From positions 558,001 through 622,000 of the forward strand of contig NZ_PITQ01000001.1 in NCBI RefSeq assembly GCF_002834385.1: DNA of 64,000 nucleotides, in the 5' to 3' direction. Made by a program: the position numbers and the translations under genes. Positions 9,431 through 22,903 of this stretch are shown here, piece by piece; within the stretch, counting starts at the first letter, position 1; each line of letters starts with the position of its first letter. The notes beneath the pieces are model-generated. The model was not told where the DNA came from. It ran no database searches and worked only from the letters and a program-made list of their open reading frames with translations. Origin of the DNA: Rahnella sp. AA. Its GTDB lineage: Bacteria; Pseudomonadota; Gammaproteobacteria; Enterobacterales; Enterobacteriaceae.

Positions 9431-10558
<1,128 letters not shown>

Positions 10559-14092: not shown

Positions 14093-14491
14093 ATGTCTAA
14101 ACACCTGTTTGAAAGTGACGAGAAAAAGTTTGCCCGCTGTTATCAGGATGCCCTTGGCTACCACCGGCGGGCGCAAATATTTTCTGACCAGCAACAGGCT
14201 GTCAGCCTGGTGTTTAACGTGGCGGCGATTGCGGTGGAAAGTTACCTGATTGCCATCTGTGCGCATTACGCCACCATGCCGTTTAATCACAATTACGCCA
14301 GCCTGCTTTCTTCCGTTGAAGAGGTGATGCCACTAGAGCCGTCACTGAGCGCCAGCATTCTCGCGCTGGACACCATCTTTGGCATTTGCTCCGTCGATGA
14401 CTACCACCACGGCACTCCGGGTGTGTCAGATAAAGAATCGATTCTGACGATTTGTAATCGCCTTTGTGCTCTGACGGAGTCGCTGGCCTGA
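14093..14491 (+). CDS. Uncharacterised 132-aa helical protein of the anf operon
   Basis: Lies 84 bp after anfK and 25 bp before the PNPOx-like gene, in the anfHDGK transcription unit; RBS GGAG is well placed. The product is predicted all-helical and soluble, with a hydrophobic central helix (LVFNVAAIAVESYLIAICAHY) and HEPN-like character, plus His/Asp/Cys residues near DDYHHG and SILTICNRLCAL. No cofactor motif is clear. Known anf operons carry small accessory genes in this place (anfO, anfR; anf1-3 in Rhodobacter), and this may be the equivalent of one of them, but I cannot assign it by sequence. A role in AnfDGK assembly is inference from position only. Confidence 0.8.
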   Translation: MSKHLFESDEKKFARCYQDALGYHRRAQIFSDQQQAVSLVFNVAAIAVESYLIAICAHYATMPFNHNYASLLSSVEEVMPLEPSLSASILALDTIFGICSVDDYHHGTPGVSDKESILTICNRLCALTESLA

Positions 14492-15050: not shown

Positions 15051-15674
15051 ATGAAAATTGCGGTATTTATCAATCTGCGTGGGGAGATTGCCACGTTATT
15101 TGAAGCCGGTAATCTCACACTTTTTTCAGATAACAGCGGCGTCTGGCTGCCAGTGAATGAAATTCCTTTTCAGATAAGCGAGGACACCGATCTTCAGCAA
15201 ATCCGCCAGCAAACCTGGCAACTGCGTGAGGCCATCCGCGATTGCCGCCATCTGGTGGTACAGAAAATTCACGGTGCGCAGATCGCCTGGTTTGACGGCC
15301 TTGGCGTCCAGCTCTGGCAGGACAAAGGGACCGTTCAGGCGCTGTCGGGAAGCCTGGATGCTATTCGCGAGCAGGCGCATCGTCAGGAGGTTGAAGCATT
15401 GCCTGCTTTATCAACCGCATTTATTACACCGGGTAAGCAGGCCGGAGAATTTCATGTTGACCTGATCACGGCGCTGAAAAGTGATGTGAAAATGACGTCA
15501 AAGCAGATCCTGTTACCGCTTTTTACCAGCCGGGCGTTTCGTCAGGTCGAGGTTATTTGCGATCATTTGCCTAAATGGTTTGCGCGTGAACTGCCAGCCC
15601 TGCAACTCAGGGTCGCAACGCAAACCGATGACAAGGGGCTCATCAGCGCTGTTGTCTCACCCGCGTCGTCCTGA
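15051..15674 (+). CDS. anfO: Fe-only nitrogenase accessory protein AnfO
   Basis: 207 residues matching the AnfO family, which is found only with anf operons and is needed for full Fe-nitrogenase activity, probably by keeping the wrong cofactor out of AnfDGK. Typical features: N terminus MKIAVFINLRGEIATLFE, the block WLPVNEIPFQI, the DCRHLVVQKIHGAQIAWFDG segment and GLGVQLWQ. RBS GGGAGTGA is just upstream. It is the last gene of the structural operon; a new sigma-54 promoter follows before anfA. Confidence 0.9.
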   Translation: MKIAVFINLRGEIATLFEAGNLTLFSDNSGVWLPVNEIPFQISEDTDLQQIRQQTWQLREAIRDCRHLVVQKIHGAQIAWFDGLGVQLWQDKGTVQALSGSLDAIREQAHRQEVEALPALSTAFITPGKQAGEFHVDLITALKSDVKMTSKQILLPLFTSRAFRQVEVICDHLPKWFARELPALQLRVATQTDDKGLISAVVSPASS

Positions 15675-15689: not shown

Positions 15690-15735
15690 TGTTCCAAAAT
15701 GTACAGCGTTGCGCAGCGTTGTTCCTTTTCGTACA
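15690..15735 (+). promoter_or_regulatory. Two perfect activator sites (TGT-N10-ACA) upstream of anfA
   Basis: TGTTCC-N5-GTACA occurs at 15690-15705 and again at 15720-15735, exactly 30 bp apart (about three helical turns). Both satisfy the NifA rule TGT-N10-ACA. They end 82 bp before the anfA sigma-54 promoter. The extended half-sites recur in altered form before anfH, so AnfA autoregulation and NifA control are both possible. Confidence 0.8.
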
Positions 15736-15816: not shown

Positions 15817-15832
15817 TGGCCTTGTTATTGCA
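15817..15832 (+). promoter_or_regulatory. Sigma-54 promoter of anfA
   Basis: TGGCCT-N5-TTGCA with GG and GC at the right separation, 38 bp before the anfA ATG. This makes anfA and the regulator gene behind it dependent on RpoN and on an enhancer-binding protein. Confidence 0.87.
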
Positions 15833-15869: not shown

Positions 15870-17495
15870 ATGAACAGGATCCACAAGCTGGAGAAAGAAA
15901 AAACCGGCGATTTTGATCACGGGTTATTCGAACCGTTATCATTCACCTGCCGTCTGGGCGAGTGTCGTTCCGAATTGCTGCCTTTATTGTCGGAGGTCAG
16001 CAAAGTCGTCAGCAGCGAAGGTTCGTTGTCCAAAACGCTGAAGCTGGTGCTGGAGCTCACCCAAAAACACCTCCAGGTCACCCGTGCGATCATCTCTTTG
16101 TATGATGCGAGCTGTGATCAGATCTTTATCCATGAGAGTTTTGGCTTATCGAAAGAGGAAGCTGAAAAAGGCGTTTACTACCTGGGCGAAGGTGTCACCG
16201 GGAAAGTCGTGGAAACCTGCCAGCCCATCATTGTGCCGTTAATTGGTGAGAGCCCGTTGTTTCTTAACCGGACCGGCAGTTGGGATAAAACCCGCGATCA
16301 GCATCTTTCATTTATTTGTGTTCCGATCGTTCGTGGCCTGAAAGTTATGGGAACCGTCAGTATTGAGCGACTCTACAATAACGATCAGCTGTTATATCTG
16401 GATCTGGAAGTGCTGCGCATTATTGCGGCCACGATTGCGCAGGCGGTAGAGCTCTATCTGCTGGAAGGTGCGCATAAAAAAGCCCTGAGGGAACAGGATA
16501 AACGTGCGCTCAGCACGCTGCCGGAAAAATTTAAACCCAGCGATATTATCGGTAATTCCCGGGCAATGCAGGCGGTGTACCGGATGATTGAAAAGGTCAG
16601 CCGGGCGCGTACCACGGTTCTGATCCTGGGCGAAAGTGGCGTCGGTAAAGAGCGCGTTGCCAGCGCAATTCATTATCACAGCCATTGTTCGCAAGGGCCT
16701 TTCGTGAAGTTCAACTGTGCTTCTTTGCCGGAAAGCGTCATTGAGAGCGAACTGTTCGGCCATGAACGTGGCGCTTTTACCGGTGCGATTTCACGCCGGG
16801 TCGGGCGCTTTGAAGAGGCCAACGGCGGCACGATATTTTTGGATGAAGTCGGGGAATTGTCGCCTTCCGCACAAGCCAAATTGTTACGTGTTCTACAGGA
16901 GCGTTGTTTTGAGCGCGTTGGCAGCAATGAAACCATCAGTGTGAATGTGCGCATTATTGCCGCGACCCACCGCGATCTGCGCGAAATGGTGTCAAAAGGA
17001 ACCTTTCGTGAAGACTTATTTTACCGCCTGAACGTCTTCCCTCTGCTCATCCCGCCGCTGCGGGATCGTGGCAACGATATTCTGATCCTTGCCGACTATT
17101 TTAATGCCTATTTTGCCCGTGAGCAGAATGTGGATGTACCGACGATTTCCACGCCAGCGTTAAACCTGCTGCTCAGCTACGACTGGCCGGGCAATGTGCG
17201 CGAATTGGAAAACATGATGGAACGCGCCGTCTTGCTGGCGGAGGAAGGGTTTATTCATAGTTATCATTTGCCAATCAATCTGCAGCCGGTTTTTGGTACA
17301 GACGCTGAAGCGATGACCGGCATTGAGGCCCGTCTGGCGAAAATCGAATACGACATCATTGTCGAATCGCTGGTGAGACATCGTGGAAATATCTCCAAAG
17401 CGGCAGCGCAGCTGTGCACTACACGGCGCGCCCTGGGGATCCGAATGTCCAAATATCAGCTGGACTATAAACAGTATCGCGGGGACGGGAATTAA
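15870..17495 (+). CDS. anfA: Sigma-54-dependent activator of the Fe-only nitrogenase genes
   Basis: 541 residues of the NifA/AnfA/VnfA family. Order: N-terminal Cys pair C27-X4-C32 (TCRLGECRSELLP); GAF domain about 45-195; AAA+ domain about 222-455 with Walker A GESGVGKE (254-261), the sigma-54 contact loop GAFTGA (301-306), Walker B IFLDEVG (322-328) and WPGNVRELEN; C-terminal HTH about 505-530. The Cys pair has the spacing known to be needed in Azotobacter AnfA, probably for an Fe-S or metal sensor; the extra upstream Cys of VnfA (C-X-C-X4-C) is replaced by Phe25. RBS ACGGAG precedes the ATG. Expected to act at the anfH sites and perhaps at its own promoter. Confidence 0.93.
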   Translation: MNRIHKLEKEKTGDFDHGLFEPLSFTCRLGECRSELLPLLSEVSKVVSSEGSLSKTLKLVLELTQKHLQVTRAIISLYDASCDQIFIHESFGLSKEEAEKGVYYLGEGVTGKVVETCQPIIVPLIGESPLFLNRTGSWDKTRDQHLSFICVPIVRGLKVMGTVSIERLYNNDQLLYLDLEVLRIIAATIAQAVELYLLEGAHKKALREQDKRALSTLPEKFKPSDIIGNSRAMQAVYRMIEKVSRARTTVLILGESGVGKERVASAIHYHSHCSQGPFVKFNCASLPESVIESELFGHERGAFTGAISRRVGRFEEANGGTIFLDEVGELSPSAQAKLLRVLQERCFERVGSNETISVNVRIIAATHRDLREMVSKGTFREDLFYRLNVFPLLIPPLRDRGNDILILADYFNAYFAREQNVDVPTISTPALNLLLSYDWPGNVRELENMMERAVLLAEEGFIHSYHLPINLQPVFGTDAEAMTGIEARLAKIEYDIIVESLVRHRGNISKAAAQLCTTRRALGIRMSKYQLDYKQYRGDGN

Positions 17496-17498
17496 CCG

Positions 17499-18575
17499 AT
17501 GGCAAGAGATAAGTCTTCCCACAGCAAACATGAGGTCAGCGAAATTGTTGCACATTCGCAGGCAATGCGGCGGGTGATGGAAAAAACGGCGCGTCTGGCC
17601 CCGATGTCATCACCGGTATTGCTGCGGGGCGAGCCGGGGACCGGCAAGGATGTGATTGCGAGGGCGATTCATGCGCAGTCCGCCTGTGCGGCAGGGCCAT
17701 TTATTAAATGGAGCTGCGACTATGCGGCCAGCGAGCAGACGCTGCTAAATTTATTGCAGCAGCAACAGGAAACGGCAGGAATAGCGGAGAAACGCCACGG
17801 AACTCTTTTTCTCAGTGAGATCGGGCATTTTAGCCTCCCGATGCAAAAGTGTTTGCTGCACCTGTTGCTGGAAGACGAATACCGCTCACTGGATGGCCGT
17901 TTCCAGCTTCCGTGTTCCCTGCGCATTGTCTGCGCGACGGAGCGGAATCTGGAGCAAAGTGTGGCAGAGGAAAGCTTCTTGCCGGAACTCTATTACCGCT
18001 TACACGTAGCCACCATTAATCTGCCGTCTTTGCGGGATCGTCATGACGATATTCCGCAACTGGTGGCGAATTTTCTGCAACGTTTTAACCGTAAAAATCA
18101 CCTCAATTTGTCGATCACCCGCGATGCGCTGGCCCCGTTGTATTTATGCCGCTGGCCGGGGAATGTCAGGGATCTGGAAAACTGCCTGGAATATGCCGTG
18201 CTGAACCGGGAAGGGGATGAAATCCAGCAATTGCCGTGTTTAGGTGAGCGGTGCCTGCGTCAGCAACTCAACGATAAAGTCAGCCACTACAGCCGGCAGA
18301 TGAAGGGGTATCCGCAGGGAAAGGGCCATATCATCCCTGTAAAACCTGAACCGGATATGACCTGGGATCCCTGCGCACCATTGCCGCAGGTTCTTTTACC
18401 GGCGGCGGTCACTGAAGGCCGTTTCGCTAACCATGACGCGATCCGCCACCGTTTTATTGTTGCGCTGGAAAAAAGTGGTTGGGTAAAAGCTAAAGCGGCG
18501 CGCCTGCTGAACATCACTCCGCGTCAGCTTTATTACGCTCTGGAAAAACTGCAAATTGAGGTGAAAAAGTTCTGA
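17499..18575 (+). CDS. NifA-like regulator lacking GAF domain and GAFTGA loop (possible anti-activator)
   Basis: 358 residues, starting 3 bp after anfA, so surely co-expressed. It has only the AAA+ and HTH parts of a NifA-type activator. Walker A GEPGTGKD (44-51), sensor I region (LRIVCATERNLE), the YYRL/RDR..DI arginine-finger region and WPGNVRDLENC are present. However, the region that should hold GAFTGA is shortened to LLNLLQQQQETAGIAEKRHG, and Walker B reads LFLSEIG with Ser106 in place of Asp. The C-terminal HTH (SGWVKAKAARLLNITPRQLYYAL) is strongly NifA-like. Cysteines C229-X17-C247-X4-C252 resemble the redox/metal motif of oxygen-sensitive NifA. It is unlikely to activate sigma-54 itself; a DNA-binding competitor or mixed-oligomer modulator is my inference. 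Confidence 0.88.
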   Translation: MARDKSSHSKHEVSEIVAHSQAMRRVMEKTARLAPMSSPVLLRGEPGTGKDVIARAIHAQSACAAGPFIKWSCDYAASEQTLLNLLQQQQETAGIAEKRHGTLFLSEIGHFSLPMQKCLLHLLLEDEYRSLDGRFQLPCSLRIVCATERNLEQSVAEESFLPELYYRLHVATINLPSLRDRHDDIPQLVANFLQRFNRKNHLNLSITRDALAPLYLCRWPGNVRDLENCLEYAVLNREGDEIQQLPCLGERCLRQQLNDKVSHYSRQMKGYPQGKGHIIPVKPEPDMTWDPCAPLPQVLLPAAVTEGRFANHDAIRHRFIVALEKSGWVKAKAARLLNITPRQLYYALEKLQIEVKKF

Positions 18576-18590
18576 AACCGGTGCGGATAA

Positions 18591-18637
18591 TGTCAGCGTA
18601 CCGACAAGTTGCTAACAAAAGTGTGCCGAAGCATTCA
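18591..18637 (+). promoter_or_regulatory. NifA-type upstream activator sites of nifJ
   Basis: A perfect TGT-N10-ACA at 18591-18606 and a near match TGT-N10-TCA at 18622-18637, 31 bp apart. The distal site starts 121 bp and the second ends 74 bp before the nifJ sigma-54 promoter. The sites lack the GTTCC/GTACA extension seen before anfA, suggesting NifA rather than AnfA as the main activator. Confidence 0.7.
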
Positions 18638-18711
18638 ATTCCTACAGACACCTCTCGCAGGATAATCAAATTAATTTAACTAATTCAGCGTATTAGACTG
18701 ATTTTTCAGTC

Positions 18712-18726
18712 TGGCATGTCCCATGC
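18712..18726 (+). promoter_or_regulatory. Sigma-54 promoter of nifJ-nifF
   Basis: TGGCAT-N5-ATGC keeps GG and GC at -24/-12 spacing, 53 bp before the nifJ ATG. An 18-bp palindromic stretch (AGACTGA / TCAGTCT) abuts its upstream side. Confidence 0.8.
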
Positions 18727-18779
18727 TTTTATCCTCACTCAAACCTTGAATTGAGCAACGTCGAGCCGGAGAGTGAGTC

Positions 18780-21700
18780 ATGCCGAGAAAAATGAAAACC
18801 ATGGACGGGAATACGGCAGCAGCCTATGTGTCTTATGCCTTCACGGATGTTACCGCGATTTATCCCATAACCCCTTCGACTCCGATGGCCGAGAGTGTCG
18901 ATGAATGGGCCGCGCAGGGTAAAAAAAACCTGTTTGGCCAGACCGTGAAAATCATGGAGATGCAGTCTGAGTCCGGTGCCGCCGGTGCCATCCACGGTGC
19001 ATTACAGGCCGGTGCTCTGGCGACCACCTATACCGCCTCGCAGGGGCTGCTGTTAATGACGCCTAACATGTACAAAATTGCCGGTGAACTGCTGCCGGCC
19101 GTTTTTCATGTGAGTGCGCGTGCTCTGGCAACCAACTCGTTGAATATCTTCGGGGATCATCAGGATGTCATGGCTGTCCGTCAGACCGGCTGCGCTATGC
19201 TGGCGGAAAGCAGTGTCCAGCAGGTCATGGATCTGGCGGCGGTCGCGCATCTGACGGCCATTAAAGGGCGCATCCCGTTTATCAATTTCTTTGATGGTTT
19301 CCGTACCTCCCACGAAATTCAGAAAATCGAAGTTCTCGATTATGAGGAATTAGGCTCGCTGCTGGACTGGGATGCCGTTGCGCGTTTTCGCCAGAATGCG
19401 CTGCATCCGGATCATCCGGTTATACGCGGCACGGCGCAAAACCCGGATATTTATTTCCAGGAGCGGGAAGCATCAAATAAATTCTATATGGCTCTGCCGG
19501 AAATGGTGGAGTCCTGTATGTCCCAAATCAGTAAACTCACCGGCCGTGAGTACCACCTGTTCAACTATTATGGTGCGCCGGATGCTGACCGGATGATTAT
19601 CGCGATGGGTTCTGTTTGTGAAACCATTCAGGAAACTGTGGATTATCTTAACGCCAGCGGTGAGAAAGTCGGCGTACTGACGGTGCATCTTTACCGGCCA
19701 TTCTCCCTGAAGCATTTTTTCAAATACATTCCCAAAAGTGTCAGCAATATTGCCGTTCTTGACCGGACCAAAGAGCCGGGGGCACTGGCGGAACCGCTGT
19801 ATCTGGACGTGAAAAGCGCGTTTTATAACAGCGACTGGCGTCCGGTGATTGTCGGTGGCCGGTATGCGCTGGGCGGTAAAGATATTCTGCCTTCCCACAT
19901 TATTTCTATCTTCGATAATCTGGCTTCCGAACGCCCTCGTGATGGTTTTACCGTCGGGATCAACGACGACGTAACCTTTACCTCGTTGCCCCGCTCAGCC
20001 CGTGATCTCGACACGTCATCTGCCGGAACGACCGCCTGTAAATTCTGGGGGCTGGGATCTGACGGCACCGTCGGGGCTAATAAAAGTGCCATCAAAATTA
20101 TCGGCGACAAAACCGATATGTATGCGCAGGCCTACTTTGCCTATGACTCTAAAAAGTCCGGCGGCGTTACGATGTCGCATTTGCGCTTTGGTCACAACCC
20201 GATTAAATCCCCGTATCTGATCGACAAGGCCGATTTTATTTCCTGCTCACAACAATCCTACGTCACCAAGTATCACCTGCTGGCAGGGCTGAAACCGGGA
20301 GGAACCTTCCTGCTGAACTGTAGCTGGGATGTGGCGGAGCTGGACGAAAAACTGCCCGTCGCCATGAAACGCTTTATTGCTGAAAACGATATTCAGTTTT
20401 ATATCGTTAATGCCGTCGGGACAGCCCAAAAGCTGGGGCTGGGCGGGCGTTTCAATATGATCATGCAATCCGCTTTCTTTAAGCTGGCTGACATTATTCC
20501 ACCGGCCCGCGCCGTGGAATATCTGAAACAAAGTATTGAGCATGCGTATGGCAATAAAGGCCAGAAGGTTGTGGATATGAACAATCTCGCCGTCGACAGC
20601 GGTATTGAATCGGTGGTGCAGGTCAGCGTACCCGGGGCATGGAAGCATCTGGAAGACAAAGCCGTGTCACCCAGAACCTTGCCTGCCTTTATCAAAGATA
20701 TTCTGATCCCGATGAACCGGCAGGAAGGTGATTCGTTGCCGGTCAGCATGTTTAACGGCATCGAAGACGGGACGTTTCCGTCCGGCACGGCGGCTTACGA
20801 AAAACGCGGTGTGGCGATTAATGTACCCGTGTGGCAGACCGACAAATGTACCCAGTGCAACCAGTGTGCCTTTATCTGCCCGCACGCGGCTATCCGACCT
20901 GTTTTGATTTCTGAAGAAGAAATGCAAAACGCACCGGCAGGTTTCAGCGCCAAACTGGCCAGCGGCGCTGAAAATGCCTGGTATCGCCTCGCGATTTCCC
21001 CGCTCGATTGCTCCGGTTGTGGAAACTGTGCCGATGTCTGCCCGGTAAAAGGCAAAGCGCTGGCGATGCAACCGCTGGAATCGCAGGAACATGAAATTGC
21101 GCTGTGGGAACATGCGCTCAGCCTGGCACCAAAAGCCAATCCGCAAAACAAATTCACTGTGAAGGGCAGCCAGTTTGAACAACCTCTGCTGGAGTTTTCC
21201 GGTGCCTGCGGCGGTTGCGGCGAAACCCCTTACGCCAAGCTGGTGACACAACTGTTTGGCGACAGAATGATGATTGCCAATGCGACCGGATGTTCCTCCA
21301 TCTGGGGCGCGAGCGCGCCTTCTATTCCTTACACCACTAACCATAAAGGGCAGGGGCCAACCTGGGCTAACTCGCTGTTTGAAGATAACGCTGAGTTTGG
21401 CCTCGGGATGCTGCTGGGGGTTGATGCCGTCCGCGATACCCTCGCAACGCATGTTAAAGCAGCACTCGATAATGCATCGGAAGCCCCGCTGGATACGGAA
21501 CTCACCGCTTGCCTGAGTGACTGGCTGGCAAATAAAGATCAGGGCGAAGGCACCCGCGAGCGGGCGGAAAAAGTCGTGGCGCTTCTGGCCGGGCAAACAC
21601 CAGGGAAAAACCCGCATACCGACAGTATTTATGCGCACCGTGATTATCTGGCAAAACGTTCTCACTGGATATTTGGCGGAGACGGCTGGGCCTACGATAT

Positions 21701-22304
21701 CGGCTTCGGGGGGCTGGACCATGTGCTGGCATCAGGCAAGGACGTTAACGTTCTGGTGTTTGATACCGAGGTGTATTCAAACACCGGCGGTCAGTCGTCT
21801 AAATCGACACCGGCTGCCGCCATTGCGCAGTTTGCCGCCAACGGCAAGAAAACCAGGAAGAAAGATCTGGGAATGATGGCGATGAGCTACGGCTATGTTT
21901 ATGTCGCACAAATTGCGATGGGAGCTGACAGGAATCAAACATTACGGGCGATTGCTGAAGCTGAGGCGTATCCGGGGCCTTCACTCATCATCGCCTACGC
22001 GGCCTGTATCAACCACGGTTTGCGTATTGGTATGGGATGCAGCCAGCGTGAAGCCAAACGCGCTGTCGAAGCCGGATACTGGGCAAACTACCGCTATCAC
22101 CCTCAGCTAAAGGAGACGGGTAAAAATCCGTTCATCCTCGATTCAGATGAACCTGAAGAGGATTTCCAGGAGTTTCTGTCTGGCGAAGTGCGCTATTCGT
22201 CGCTTAAAAAACAGTACCCGGAATTTGCCGAATCTTTGTTTAAAAAGACCGAAGACGACGCACGCGAAAGACGCGAGGGCTATAAAAAACTCGCGTCATC
22301 CTGA
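18780..22304 (+). CDS. nifJ: Pyruvate:flavodoxin oxidoreductase
   Basis: 1174 residues, full length. Oxidises pyruvate and CoA to acetyl-CoA and CO2 and reduces flavodoxin for nitrogenase. Order: pyrimidine-binding domain starting MKTMDGNTAAAYVSYAFTD with YPITPSTPMAE; gamma domain around GLGSDGTVGANK; a ferredoxin-like insert with two [4Fe-4S] motifs (CTQCNQCAFICPH and CSGCGNCADVCP); thiamine-diphosphate domain with CGGCGETPYAK, GGDGWAYDIG and the C-terminal EVYSNTGGQSSKSTP. The start at 18780 has RBS GGAGAGTGAG. It has its own sigma-54 promoter and NifA-type sites and is followed by nifF, so the pair forms the electron-supply operon of the island. Confidence 0.97.
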   Translation: MPRKMKTMDGNTAAAYVSYAFTDVTAIYPITPSTPMAESVDEWAAQGKKNLFGQTVKIMEMQSESGAAGAIHGALQAGALATTYTASQGLLLMTPNMYKIAGELLPAVFHVSARALATNSLNIFGDHQDVMAVRQTGCAMLAESSVQQVMDLAAVAHLTAIKGRIPFINFFDGFRTSHEIQKIEVLDYEELGSLLDWDAVARFRQNALHPDHPVIRGTAQNPDIYFQEREASNKFYMALPEMVESCMSQISKLTGREYHLFNYYGAPDADRMIIAMGSVCETIQETVDYLNASGEKVGVLTVHLYRPFSLKHFFKYIPKSVSNIAVLDRTKEPGALAEPLYLDVKSAFYNSDWRPVIVGGRYALGGKDILPSHIISIFDNLASERPRDGFTVGINDDVTFTSLPRSARDLDTSSAGTTACKFWGLGSDGTVGANKSAIKIIGDKTDMYAQAYFAYDSKKSGGVTMSHLRFGHNPIKSPYLIDKADFISCSQQSYVTKYHLLAGLKPGGTFLLNCSWDVAELDEKLPVAMKRFIAENDIQFYIVNAVGTAQKLGLGGRFNMIMQSAFFKLADIIPPARAVEYLKQSIEHAYGNKGQKVVDMNNLAVDSGIESVVQVSVPGAWKHLEDKAVSPRTLPAFIKDILIPMNRQEGDSLPVSMFNGIEDGTFPSGTAAYEKRGVAINVPVWQTDKCTQCNQCAFICPHAAIRPVLISEEEMQNAPAGFSAKLASGAENAWYRLAISPLDCSGCGNCADVCPVKGKALAMQPLESQEHEIALWEHALSLAPKANPQNKFTVKGSQFEQPLLEFSGACGGCGETPYAKLVTQLFGDRMMIANATGCSSIWGASAPSIPYTTNHKGQGPTWANSLFEDNAEFGLGMLLGVDAVRDTLATHVKAALDNASEAPLDTELTACLSDWLANKDQGEGTRERAEKVVALLAGQTPGKNPHTDSIYAHRDYLAKRSHWIFGGDGWAYDIGFGGLDHVLASGKDVNVLVFDTEVYSNTGGQSSKSTPAAAIAQFAANGKKTRKKDLGMMAMSYGYVYVAQIAMGADRNQTLRAIAEAEAYPGPSLIIAYAACINHGLRIGMGCSQREAKRAVEAGYWANYRYHPQLKETGKNPFILDSDEPEEDFQEFLSGEVRYSSLKKQYPEFAESLFKKTEDDARERREGYKKLASS

Positions 22305-22369
22305 GTGGAAACGGCGGGTCGTAATGGCGATAACGTTTTAATAAACCTATGATATATAAGGAGATGATT

Positions 22370-22903
22370 ATGGCTACAATCGGTATTTTTTTTGGGTCTG
22401 ATACCGGACAAACAAGAAAAGTCGCAAAACTTATTCACCAGAAACTGGACGGGATTGCTGATGCTCCTCTGGATGTCAGGCGCGCCACCAGCGAACAGTT
22501 TTTGTCCTACCCGGTTTTACTCTTAGGAACGCCAACGCTGGGGGATGGCGAGCTGCCGGGTGTCGACGCCGGCAGTCAGTATGACTCCTGGCAGGAGTTT
22601 ACAGACACGCTTTCAGAAGCTGACCTGACCGGTAAGACGGTGGCATTATTTGGGCTGGGCGATCAGCTTAACTATTCCAAAAATTTTGTCAGCGCTATGC
22701 GCATCCTGTATGACCTCGTTATTTCGCGTGGTGCCAGCGTGGTCGGTAACTGGCCGCGTGAAGGCTATAAGTTTTCGTTTTCCGCCGCGCTGCTGGAAAG
22801 CAATGAATTTGTCGGCCTGCCGTTGGATCAGGAAAATCAATATGATCTGACGGAAGAGCGCATAGACAGCTGGCTGGAGAAGATTAAGCAAGCTGTACTC
22901 TGA
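22370..22903 (+). CDS. nifF: Nitrogen-fixation flavodoxin
   Basis: 177 residues, a long-chain flavodoxin that carries electrons from NifJ to the nitrogenase Fe protein. The FMN-phosphate loop is FFGSDTGQTRKVAK near the N terminus, and the FMN-stacking loops include LGTPTLGDGELPG and LFGLGDQLNYSKNF. The start at 22370 is chosen because AAGGAG lies at 22358-22363; upstream in-frame codons give an unlikely MIYKEMI extension. It lies 65 bp after nifJ without a promoter of its own and ends before a strong terminator. Confidence 0.95.
   Translation: MATIGIFFGSDTGQTRKVAKLIHQKLDGIADAPLDVRRATSEQFLSYPVLLLGTPTLGDGELPGVDAGSQYDSWQEFTDTLSEADLTGKTVALFGLGDQLNYSKNFVSAMRILYDLVISRGASVVGNWPREGYKFSFSAALLESNEFVGLPLDQENQYDLTEERIDSWLEKIKQAVL

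Follow-up and report, generated by a model that had tools for sequence, protein, structure and literature searches.

What can a NifA-derived protein without an activating loop do in a gene cluster for Fe-nitrogenase? The question is raised by a gene of Rahnella sp. AA, here called X, which encodes a protein of 358 aa (17499-18575, + strand; all positions are those of the window, by which we mean the whole stretch of 64,000 nucleotides that was analysed) with an AAA+ domain lacking GAFTGA, a cysteine linker and a NifA-type helix-turn-helix (HTH). As the first-pass annotation of this DNA had it, X lies directly behind anfA (15870-17495, +), the gene for the activator of the Fe-nitrogenase genes, which has a GAF domain, GAFTGA and an HTH unlike that of X. 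The ATG of X stands 3 bp 3' of the anfA stop and the two genes probably form one operon. The gene order in the window is anfH-D-G-K-orf132-anfR-anfO-anfA-X, followed by nifJ- and nifF-like genes. The anfD gene was confirmed by TIGR01861 and anfO (15051-15674, +) by Pfam PF09582; the names anfH, anfG, anfK, anfR, nifJ and nifF are our own presumptive assignments from the sequence. What we take to be anfH (9731-10558, +, start inferred) is the first gene of anfHDGK-orf132-anfR-anfO, and the next gene after X (18780-22304, +) is presumably nifJ, judged by similarity, encoding a pyruvate:flavodoxin oxidoreductase. The nifJ- and nifF-like genes (18591-22903) adjoin the anf cluster, and nifA, nifB and nifD of the same genome are found on contig C28. 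The ORF of 132 aa between anfK and anfR (14093-14491) had no Pfam or NCBIfam match at E up to 1 and is present in all 15 other Enterobacterales anf clusters examined, with 51-70% identity.

Pfam recognises three domains in X, namely a sigma-54 AAA+ domain (PF00158), an AAA lid (PF25601) and a Fis-type HTH (PF02954), and gives no match to a GAF domain, the absence of which had been noticed from the letters alone. The AAA+ match starts at residue 16, only about 14 residues precede the domain, and there is no N-terminal domain with conserved cysteines as in the VnfA2/VnfA3 type. The best NCBIfam model is nifA (TIGR01817), with 289 bits, below its cut-off of 528.85, and it covers profile positions 190-534 only. 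The AlphaFold model of X is moderate (mean pLDDT 68.8) and is low at residues 89-98 (under 50) and 126-139, stretches that would lie at about the places of loops L1 and L2. The best PDB matches of this model are ZraR, NtrX, FleQ, PspF and NtrC1; NifA, as present in its complex with NifL (9qq6), follows at rank 16.

The residues kept and lost in the AAA+ domain were read from an alignment of ten X proteins with 43 activators (24 NifA, 11 AnfA and 8 others), of which 39 had been chosen by a GAFTG-like string, so that the occurrence of GAFTGA among them is by selection; three NifA rows were omitted before counting, L156 being cut, L158 having given no frame and L180 having no GAFTG frame of at least 300 aa. 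Walker A, which is GEPGTGK at residues 44-50 of X (17628-17648, +), is kept as GxPGTGK in all ten members, as is the sensor-II Arg224. The stretch where the GAFTGA loop L1 is expected (residues 82-98; 17742-17792, +) is intact in none of the ten, and several residues of L1 and L2 are gone. In Walker B (F-L-S106-E107; the Ser-Glu pair at 17814-17819, +) the Asp found in 43/43 comparison activators is replaced by Ser in 10/10 members with the Glu retained, and in the arginine-finger stretch (residues 161-167; 17979-17999, +) the first Arg has become Leu161, a residue found in none of the 43 at this place, and the second, Arg167, is kept, both in 10/10. The switch Asn (residue 72) is kept in 0/10. 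Moreover, the Glu after Walker A is Asp in all ten, unlike in any of the 43 comparison activators, and residue 163 is Glu in all ten and Asp in all 43. Altogether 74 of the 231 positions of the domain are invariant among the members. The intact Walker A, the missing GAFTGA and the change of the Walker-B Asp to Ser106 had already been described for the Rahnella protein and prove to be family traits; the losses at residues 161 and 72 and in the two loops go beyond that description and are equally strict.

According to the available text of two reviews, GAFTGA contacts region I of sigma-54, E108 and N64 form a glutamate switch to L1/L2, and R299 of NtrC1, analogous to R168 of PspF, touches the ATP of the neighbouring subunit (PMC7057263, PMC7175178). 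When the losses and retentions in X are set beside these published roles, through our own correspondence of its residues to PspF numbering, the firing mechanism appears to be gone and the nucleotide pocket to be kept. The earlier claim that X cannot activate alone is, at the level of sequence, well grounded. Nevertheless the loss of GAFTGA is not an absolute proof against sigma-54 activation, since the NtrC of Caulobacter, which lacks GAFTGA, was reported in the available text to raise sigma-54 genes once its DNA-binding domain is mutated (PMC12421884).

The C-X17-C-X4-C motif that had been noted is real but is only the end of a longer one, C217-X11-C229-X17-C247-X4-C252 (18147-18254, +), which is present in all ten members with the spacing counted from the alignment. 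In the same alignment the NifA of Cupriavidus has C-X11-C-X19-C-X4-C. Compared with the linker of the oxygen-sensitive NifA, X has all four cysteines and a middle spacer of 17, not 19, in 10/10 members, and their assignment to the metal/oxygen type looks well grounded. The C-terminal HTH of the Fis/NifA type (18444-18572, +) was recognised by Pfam and by alignment. For residues 314-358 the median identity is highest with oxygen-sensitive NifA (56-58%), followed by enterobacterial NifA (54%), the eight other activators (53%) and, far behind, AnfA (27%); for the core (residues 328-350) the corresponding values are 70%, 59%, 61% and 35%. These figures bear out that an HTH of NifA type has been retained (54-58% to NifA against 27% to AnfA) and make NifA-type DNA binding by X likely, while the 53% identity to other activators indicates that the likeness is not exclusive to NifA. 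The recognition helix departs from NifA at one position, which is Tyr in eight of the ten members and Ser or Gly in the other two.

After removal of overlaps the family consists of nine members from Enterobacterales and one from a Tolumonas metagenome-assembled genome (MAG). They come from the window, Brenneria roseae, Brenneria 4F2, Acerihabitans, Serratia marcescens 1001295B as titled (G035), bin_27, Martelella alba BGMRC 2031 as titled, Sodalis dw_96, G412 and the Tolumonas MAG. X stands directly behind anfA in the same anf order in all nine Enterobacterales members, with 1-3 bp between the anfA stop and the X start in eight and an overlap in Martelella. Whether orthologues behind anfA share the GAFTGA loss and the Asp-to-Ser change was a check proposed in the first-pass annotation, and they do (9/9 in Enterobacterales, 10/10 in the family). 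Of 392 genomes of the window's family, seven gave X in a protein search (E up to 1e-55, at most five candidates per genome being scored); anfD was above cut-off in 14 of the 392, including all seven with X (up to three candidates scored per genome). In a contig scan with two peptide patterns eight strong relatives had 48-62% identity in the best segment and the next by rank had 36%. When 369 genomes of the class were searched, that of the window among them and with at most five candidates scored in each, no protein but the X of the window was at family level (618 bits); it was followed by seven longer frames of 546-564 aa with 333-360 bits, six of them with GAFTG and the cysteine motif, as in NifA. 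In the order to which the Tolumonas MAG belongs, 247 genomes were searched (the MAG included; up to seven candidates each), and X was found only in the MAG, at E up to 1e-95.

Since X is absent from seven of the 14 anfD-bearing genomes of the family sample, it is a modifier and not an essential part of the system. A Brenneria genome without X (G398) aligns on both sides of the X position, with a gap where X sits, and no replacement regulator was recognised by eye among the ORFs of four loci without X. In two genomes without X from the same genus as G035, an ORF of 943 aa on the other strand stands behind anfA where G035 has X (L134, 11289-14120, and L133, 10642-13473, both in oriented copies). 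L133, which belongs to a 100% complete genome of one contig (G218), carries a whole-looking anfHDGK-R-O-A cluster; neither NifA nor NifD above cut-off was found in this genome, nor any NifB at E up to 1e-30. Either the cluster is stranded or it encodes an unusual Fe-nitrogenase that has no Mo system beside it. In a draft genome anfD (G423:C23:89414-90943) has one in-frame TGA, and that anf cluster is possibly decaying unless the TGA is a sequencing error. A tie between X and the presence of Mo-nif was considered and rejected, NifD being above cut-off in 9/9 genomes with X and 6/7 without it among those searched (Brenneria 4F2 was outside this search). The idea that X rescues a host NifA without HTH, which short profile matches in G035 and G439 had brought up, was also rejected, as the NifA of G035 is whole and the frame in G439 is cut only by the end of the locus.

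In a tree of 53 rows, from AAA+ to HTH, in which the AnfA of five of the 16 genomes was left out, X forms one clade (100/100) on a long stem (1.07). X and the NifA proteins with the cysteine motif, together with row L184, lie on one side of a branch supported by 99/93, and enterobacterial NifA (100/97) and AnfA (100/100) are separate. Row L184, entered as another activator, falls among the NifA with the cysteine motif and is probably a NifA itself. X may be either sister to the NifA with the cysteine motif or derived from within them, and its origin as a truncated copy of the host's NifA or AnfA is ruled out by the tree.

Could X be a decaying or neutral remnant of a former nifA? Its amino acid sequence does change faster than that of its neighbour. 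In the closest pair, Sodalis dw_96 and G412, X has dN 0.045 and dS 0.33 and AnfA dN 0.008 and dS 0.30, the AnfA rate being approximate as the dw_96 AnfA used was extended past its stop codon; in the two Brenneria the values are 0.185 and 1.31 for X and 0.052 and 1.22 for AnfA. Pair by pair, the dN of X exceeds that of AnfA by a factor of about two to six, which, like the lack of X in seven of 14 anf genomes, is what a remnant would show. Against this, the frame is open in 10/10 genomes from two orders, the same residues have been changed and then fixed in all ten, and dN is well under dS wherever dS could be measured (23 of the 45 X pairs had no computable dS owing to saturation, and most of the others were above 1). 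X is under purifying selection, as the first-pass annotation had proposed to check, and is constrained less than AnfA. The same annotation had named a decaying copy with GAFTGA-bearing orthologues as the outcome that would overturn it; what was found is ten members without GAFTGA under purifying selection, which rules out a pseudogene, and even a remnant in a wider sense is hardly credible to us.

The Tolumonas member stands in a vanadium-nitrogenase cluster (VnfD 955 bits with a cut-off of 823, VnfG 142 with a cut-off of 141.7, and VnfK 853, just under 874), so X is tied to alternative nitrogenases in general and not to anf alone. The same contig encodes a divergent activator that is 74% identical to the AnfA of the window. 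Here the genes in front of X, as judged by eye from their ORFs, are fixA-fixB-fixCX-like, and X has the place that nifA has in R. tropici. It has its own sigma-54-like site (L174, 15347) with a ModE-like box just behind it (15369, two mismatches), no exact TGT-N10-ACA was found just above it, and two more ModE-like boxes, with two mismatches, are on the same stretch of 20 kb. Besides the vnf genes, the AnfA-like activator, the fix-like genes and X, this stretch (L174, 1-20000) has nifE-type and nifN-like genes and an ABC transporter, possibly for an oxyanion, several of these names having been given by eye.

The promoters of the Enterobacterales clusters suggest by what X might be switched on and where it might bind. 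NifA binds TGT-N10-ACA and alphaproteobacterial AnfA binds TAC-N6-GTA, according to the available text of PMC7294313. The motif search placed two NifA-type sites in the anfA-X promoter of the window, TGTTCCAAAATGTACA (15690-15705, +) and TGTTCCTTTTCGTACA (15720-15735, +), the second of them 97 bp above a predicted sigma-54-type promoter, TGGCCTTGTTATTGC (15817-15831, +). A further NifA-type site, TGTCAGCGTACCGACA (18591-18606, +), was predicted between X and nifJ, with a sigma-54-type promoter of nifJ, TGGCATGTCCCATGC (18712-18726, +). TGT-N10-ACA is found in the anfO-anfA gap of all 16 clusters (nine with and seven without X), and in 15 of them the distance from it down to a TGG-N9-TGC sigma-54 site is 96-98 or 116-128 bp; only in L138 does the NifA site stand alone, without a paired sigma-54 site. 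Chance would give 0.08 such pairs per mononucleotide-shuffled strand of 20 kb, and elsewhere in the real sequence, besides nifJ, there are four in 15 loci. As the site is equally present in the clusters without X (7/7), it was not made for X. A targeting of anfH by X through NifA sites was rejected, as an exact TGT-N10-ACA within 450 bp above anfH was found in 1/8 clusters with X and 0/7 without, and this sole site overlaps a TAC-N6-GTA.

A palindrome that we take to be ModE-like, from the consensus CGTTATAT-N8-ATATAACG, was found with at most two mismatches in the anfA promoter of 5/9 clusters with X and 0/7 without. All five belong to a Sodalis-like group, and the box is absent from the anfA promoters of the window, both Brenneria and G035. 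With up to three mismatches there are ten such sites in 343 kb, five of them in these anfA promoters and five elsewhere, of which two are in loci without X. In Azotobacter vinelandii ModE represses vnfA1 and anfA and NifA is apparently not regulated by Mo (PMC9542535), and in Rhodobacter capsulatus anfA is activated instead by NtrC with RpoD (PMC6925177), both as far as the available text of these reports goes.

Taken together, these features lead us to propose, tentatively and falling just short of an even balance, that X is a disarmed NifA paralogue for alternative nitrogenases, which would bind NifA sites without activating and enter mixed rings as a subunit that damps NifA or AnfA. NifA would turn on the anfA-X operon through its TGT-N10-ACA/sigma-54 promoter; in the clusters with a ModE-like box it would do so only under a shortage of Mo. 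X would then occupy NifA-type sites, that of its own promoter first and afterwards those above nif genes, for example nifJ or nifHDK, and the retained AAA+ domain would put it into rings with NifA or AnfA as a non-firing subunit. In consequence the expression of anfA would be limited and, once a cell has gone over to its Fe (or V) nitrogenase, that of NifA-driven genes would be lowered; through the cysteines the brake could respond to iron or to the redox state. There would be a use for it if NifA is as indifferent to Mo as it seems to be in A. vinelandii, where ModE acts on vnfA1 and anfA (PMC9542535, available text). Mixed rings seem more likely than pure competition for sites, because the conserved nucleotide pocket implies that the AAA+ domain still does something. 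The anti-activator role first suggested for X can be reasonably inferred, yet a brake also has points against it. The Fe-nitrogenase in its turn depends on NifA-driven genes, nifB for one, and a strong brake would do it harm, and ModE-like boxes are not confined to anfA promoters of clusters with X, the promoter of the window being without one. The presence of the NifA site in clusters without X, an HTH that is not exclusive to NifA, the deviating position in the recognition helix and the case of the Caulobacter NtrC weigh on the same side. Competition for DNA alone would not call for so conserved an AAA+ domain (74 of 231 positions), so that ring formation or the binding of nucleotide must count; this would suit a co-activator no less than a poison. 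A broader wording, possible but doubtful, is that X is a catalytically dead subunit of sigma-54 activator rings, a metal- or redox-sensing pseudo-activator linked to alternative nitrogenases and induced by Mo starvation in some lineages; by retargeting or poisoning mixed AAA+ rings with AnfA/VnfA or NifA it might bring to NifA-driven genes the control by Mo status that NifA lacks.

The same rings can be imagined with the opposite sign. X might give NifA-type DNA binding and a cysteine sensor to mixed rings in which AnfA (or VnfA) provides the ATPase and GAFTGA, so that the pair acts at TGT-N10-ACA, for instance in auto-activation of anfA-X without the NifL-controlled NifA. The start of X 1-3 bp from the anfA stop in 8/9 members, the two different and perhaps complementary HTHs and the kept nucleotide pocket with Arg167 are in keeping with such a partnership. 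It also has precedents in the available text of PMC9542535, where one class of promoters is co-activated by mixed oligomers of VnfA1 and VnfA3, and VnfA2 has VnfA1, not itself, as its partner; N-terminal regulatory domains are missing from HrpR-HrpS and FleQ-FleT, as they are from X. However, the Walker-B Asp and the first arginine finger, which would be the share of X in the ring, are lost in 10/10 members, the anfA promoters look alike in genomes without X, and the Azotobacter partners keep their N-terminal domains (the word GAFTGA occurs 0 times in PMC9542535); we regard co-activation as rather unlikely. More improbable still, by analogy with the Caulobacter NtrC, is a stand-alone regulator, activator or repressor, of sigma-70 promoters: activator-like proteins without GAFTGA do exist at such promoters (available text of PMC12421884), but the NifA-type sites found here stand above sigma-54-type promoters, and X is also without the Walker-B Asp, the arginine finger and the switch Asn. 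If a disarmed partner of NifA or AnfA is what X is, it would be a new regulatory device, as sigma-54 activator rings are mostly treated as homo-hexamers and not as having a conserved dedicated dead subunit or decoy. It would also be relevant to the question how a cell that has two or three nitrogenases avoids the useless expression of the Mo-enzyme genes when Mo is missing, since NifA turns these on whatever the Mo supply.

No description of X was found among the papers listed from the openly licensed literature, although several known systems resemble parts of it. The oxygen-sensitive NifA of rhizobia, Cupriavidus and Methylococcus shares with X the HTH and the lid and has a cysteine linker of similar layout, whereas it has the GAF domain, GAFTGA, the Walker-B Asp and the arginine finger that X is without. 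AnfA differs from X in its GAF domain, its AnfA-type HTH and its separate clade. FleQ and FleT of Rhodobacter sphaeroides, like AnfA and X, are two unequal activator-like partners, one of them incomplete and the second being made from an operon that the first activates (PMC7277832, available text); FleT, however, is described as being without regulatory and DNA-binding domains (PMC7175178), whereas X keeps its DNA-binding domain and is without the activating loop. The Caulobacter NtrC is activator-like and lacks GAFTGA, as X does, but the available text gives it a receiver domain and an action at sigma-70 promoters, with many sites (PMC12421884). The first-pass annotation knew of no described system of this kind, which is too strong a statement, because according to the available text of PMC9542535 paralogous activators assemble into mixed oligomers in A. 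vinelandii, by which some promoters are co-activated and vnfDGK may be repressed; the authors consider it possible that such oligomers act as negative regulators. The likeness to X that we propose lies in VnfA2 and VnfA3, which with VnfZ are paralogous activators devoted to alternative nitrogenases and form mixed oligomers with the master activator; by their descriptions there (PMC9542535) they are set apart by keeping N-terminal GAF/Cys domains and VnfA-type DNA binding, X being NifA-like and without GAF and GAFTGA. NifA2 of A. vinelandii, which is named in the same report, could be related to X. The Azotobacter VnfA1-VnfA3 system is the nearest measured case to X.
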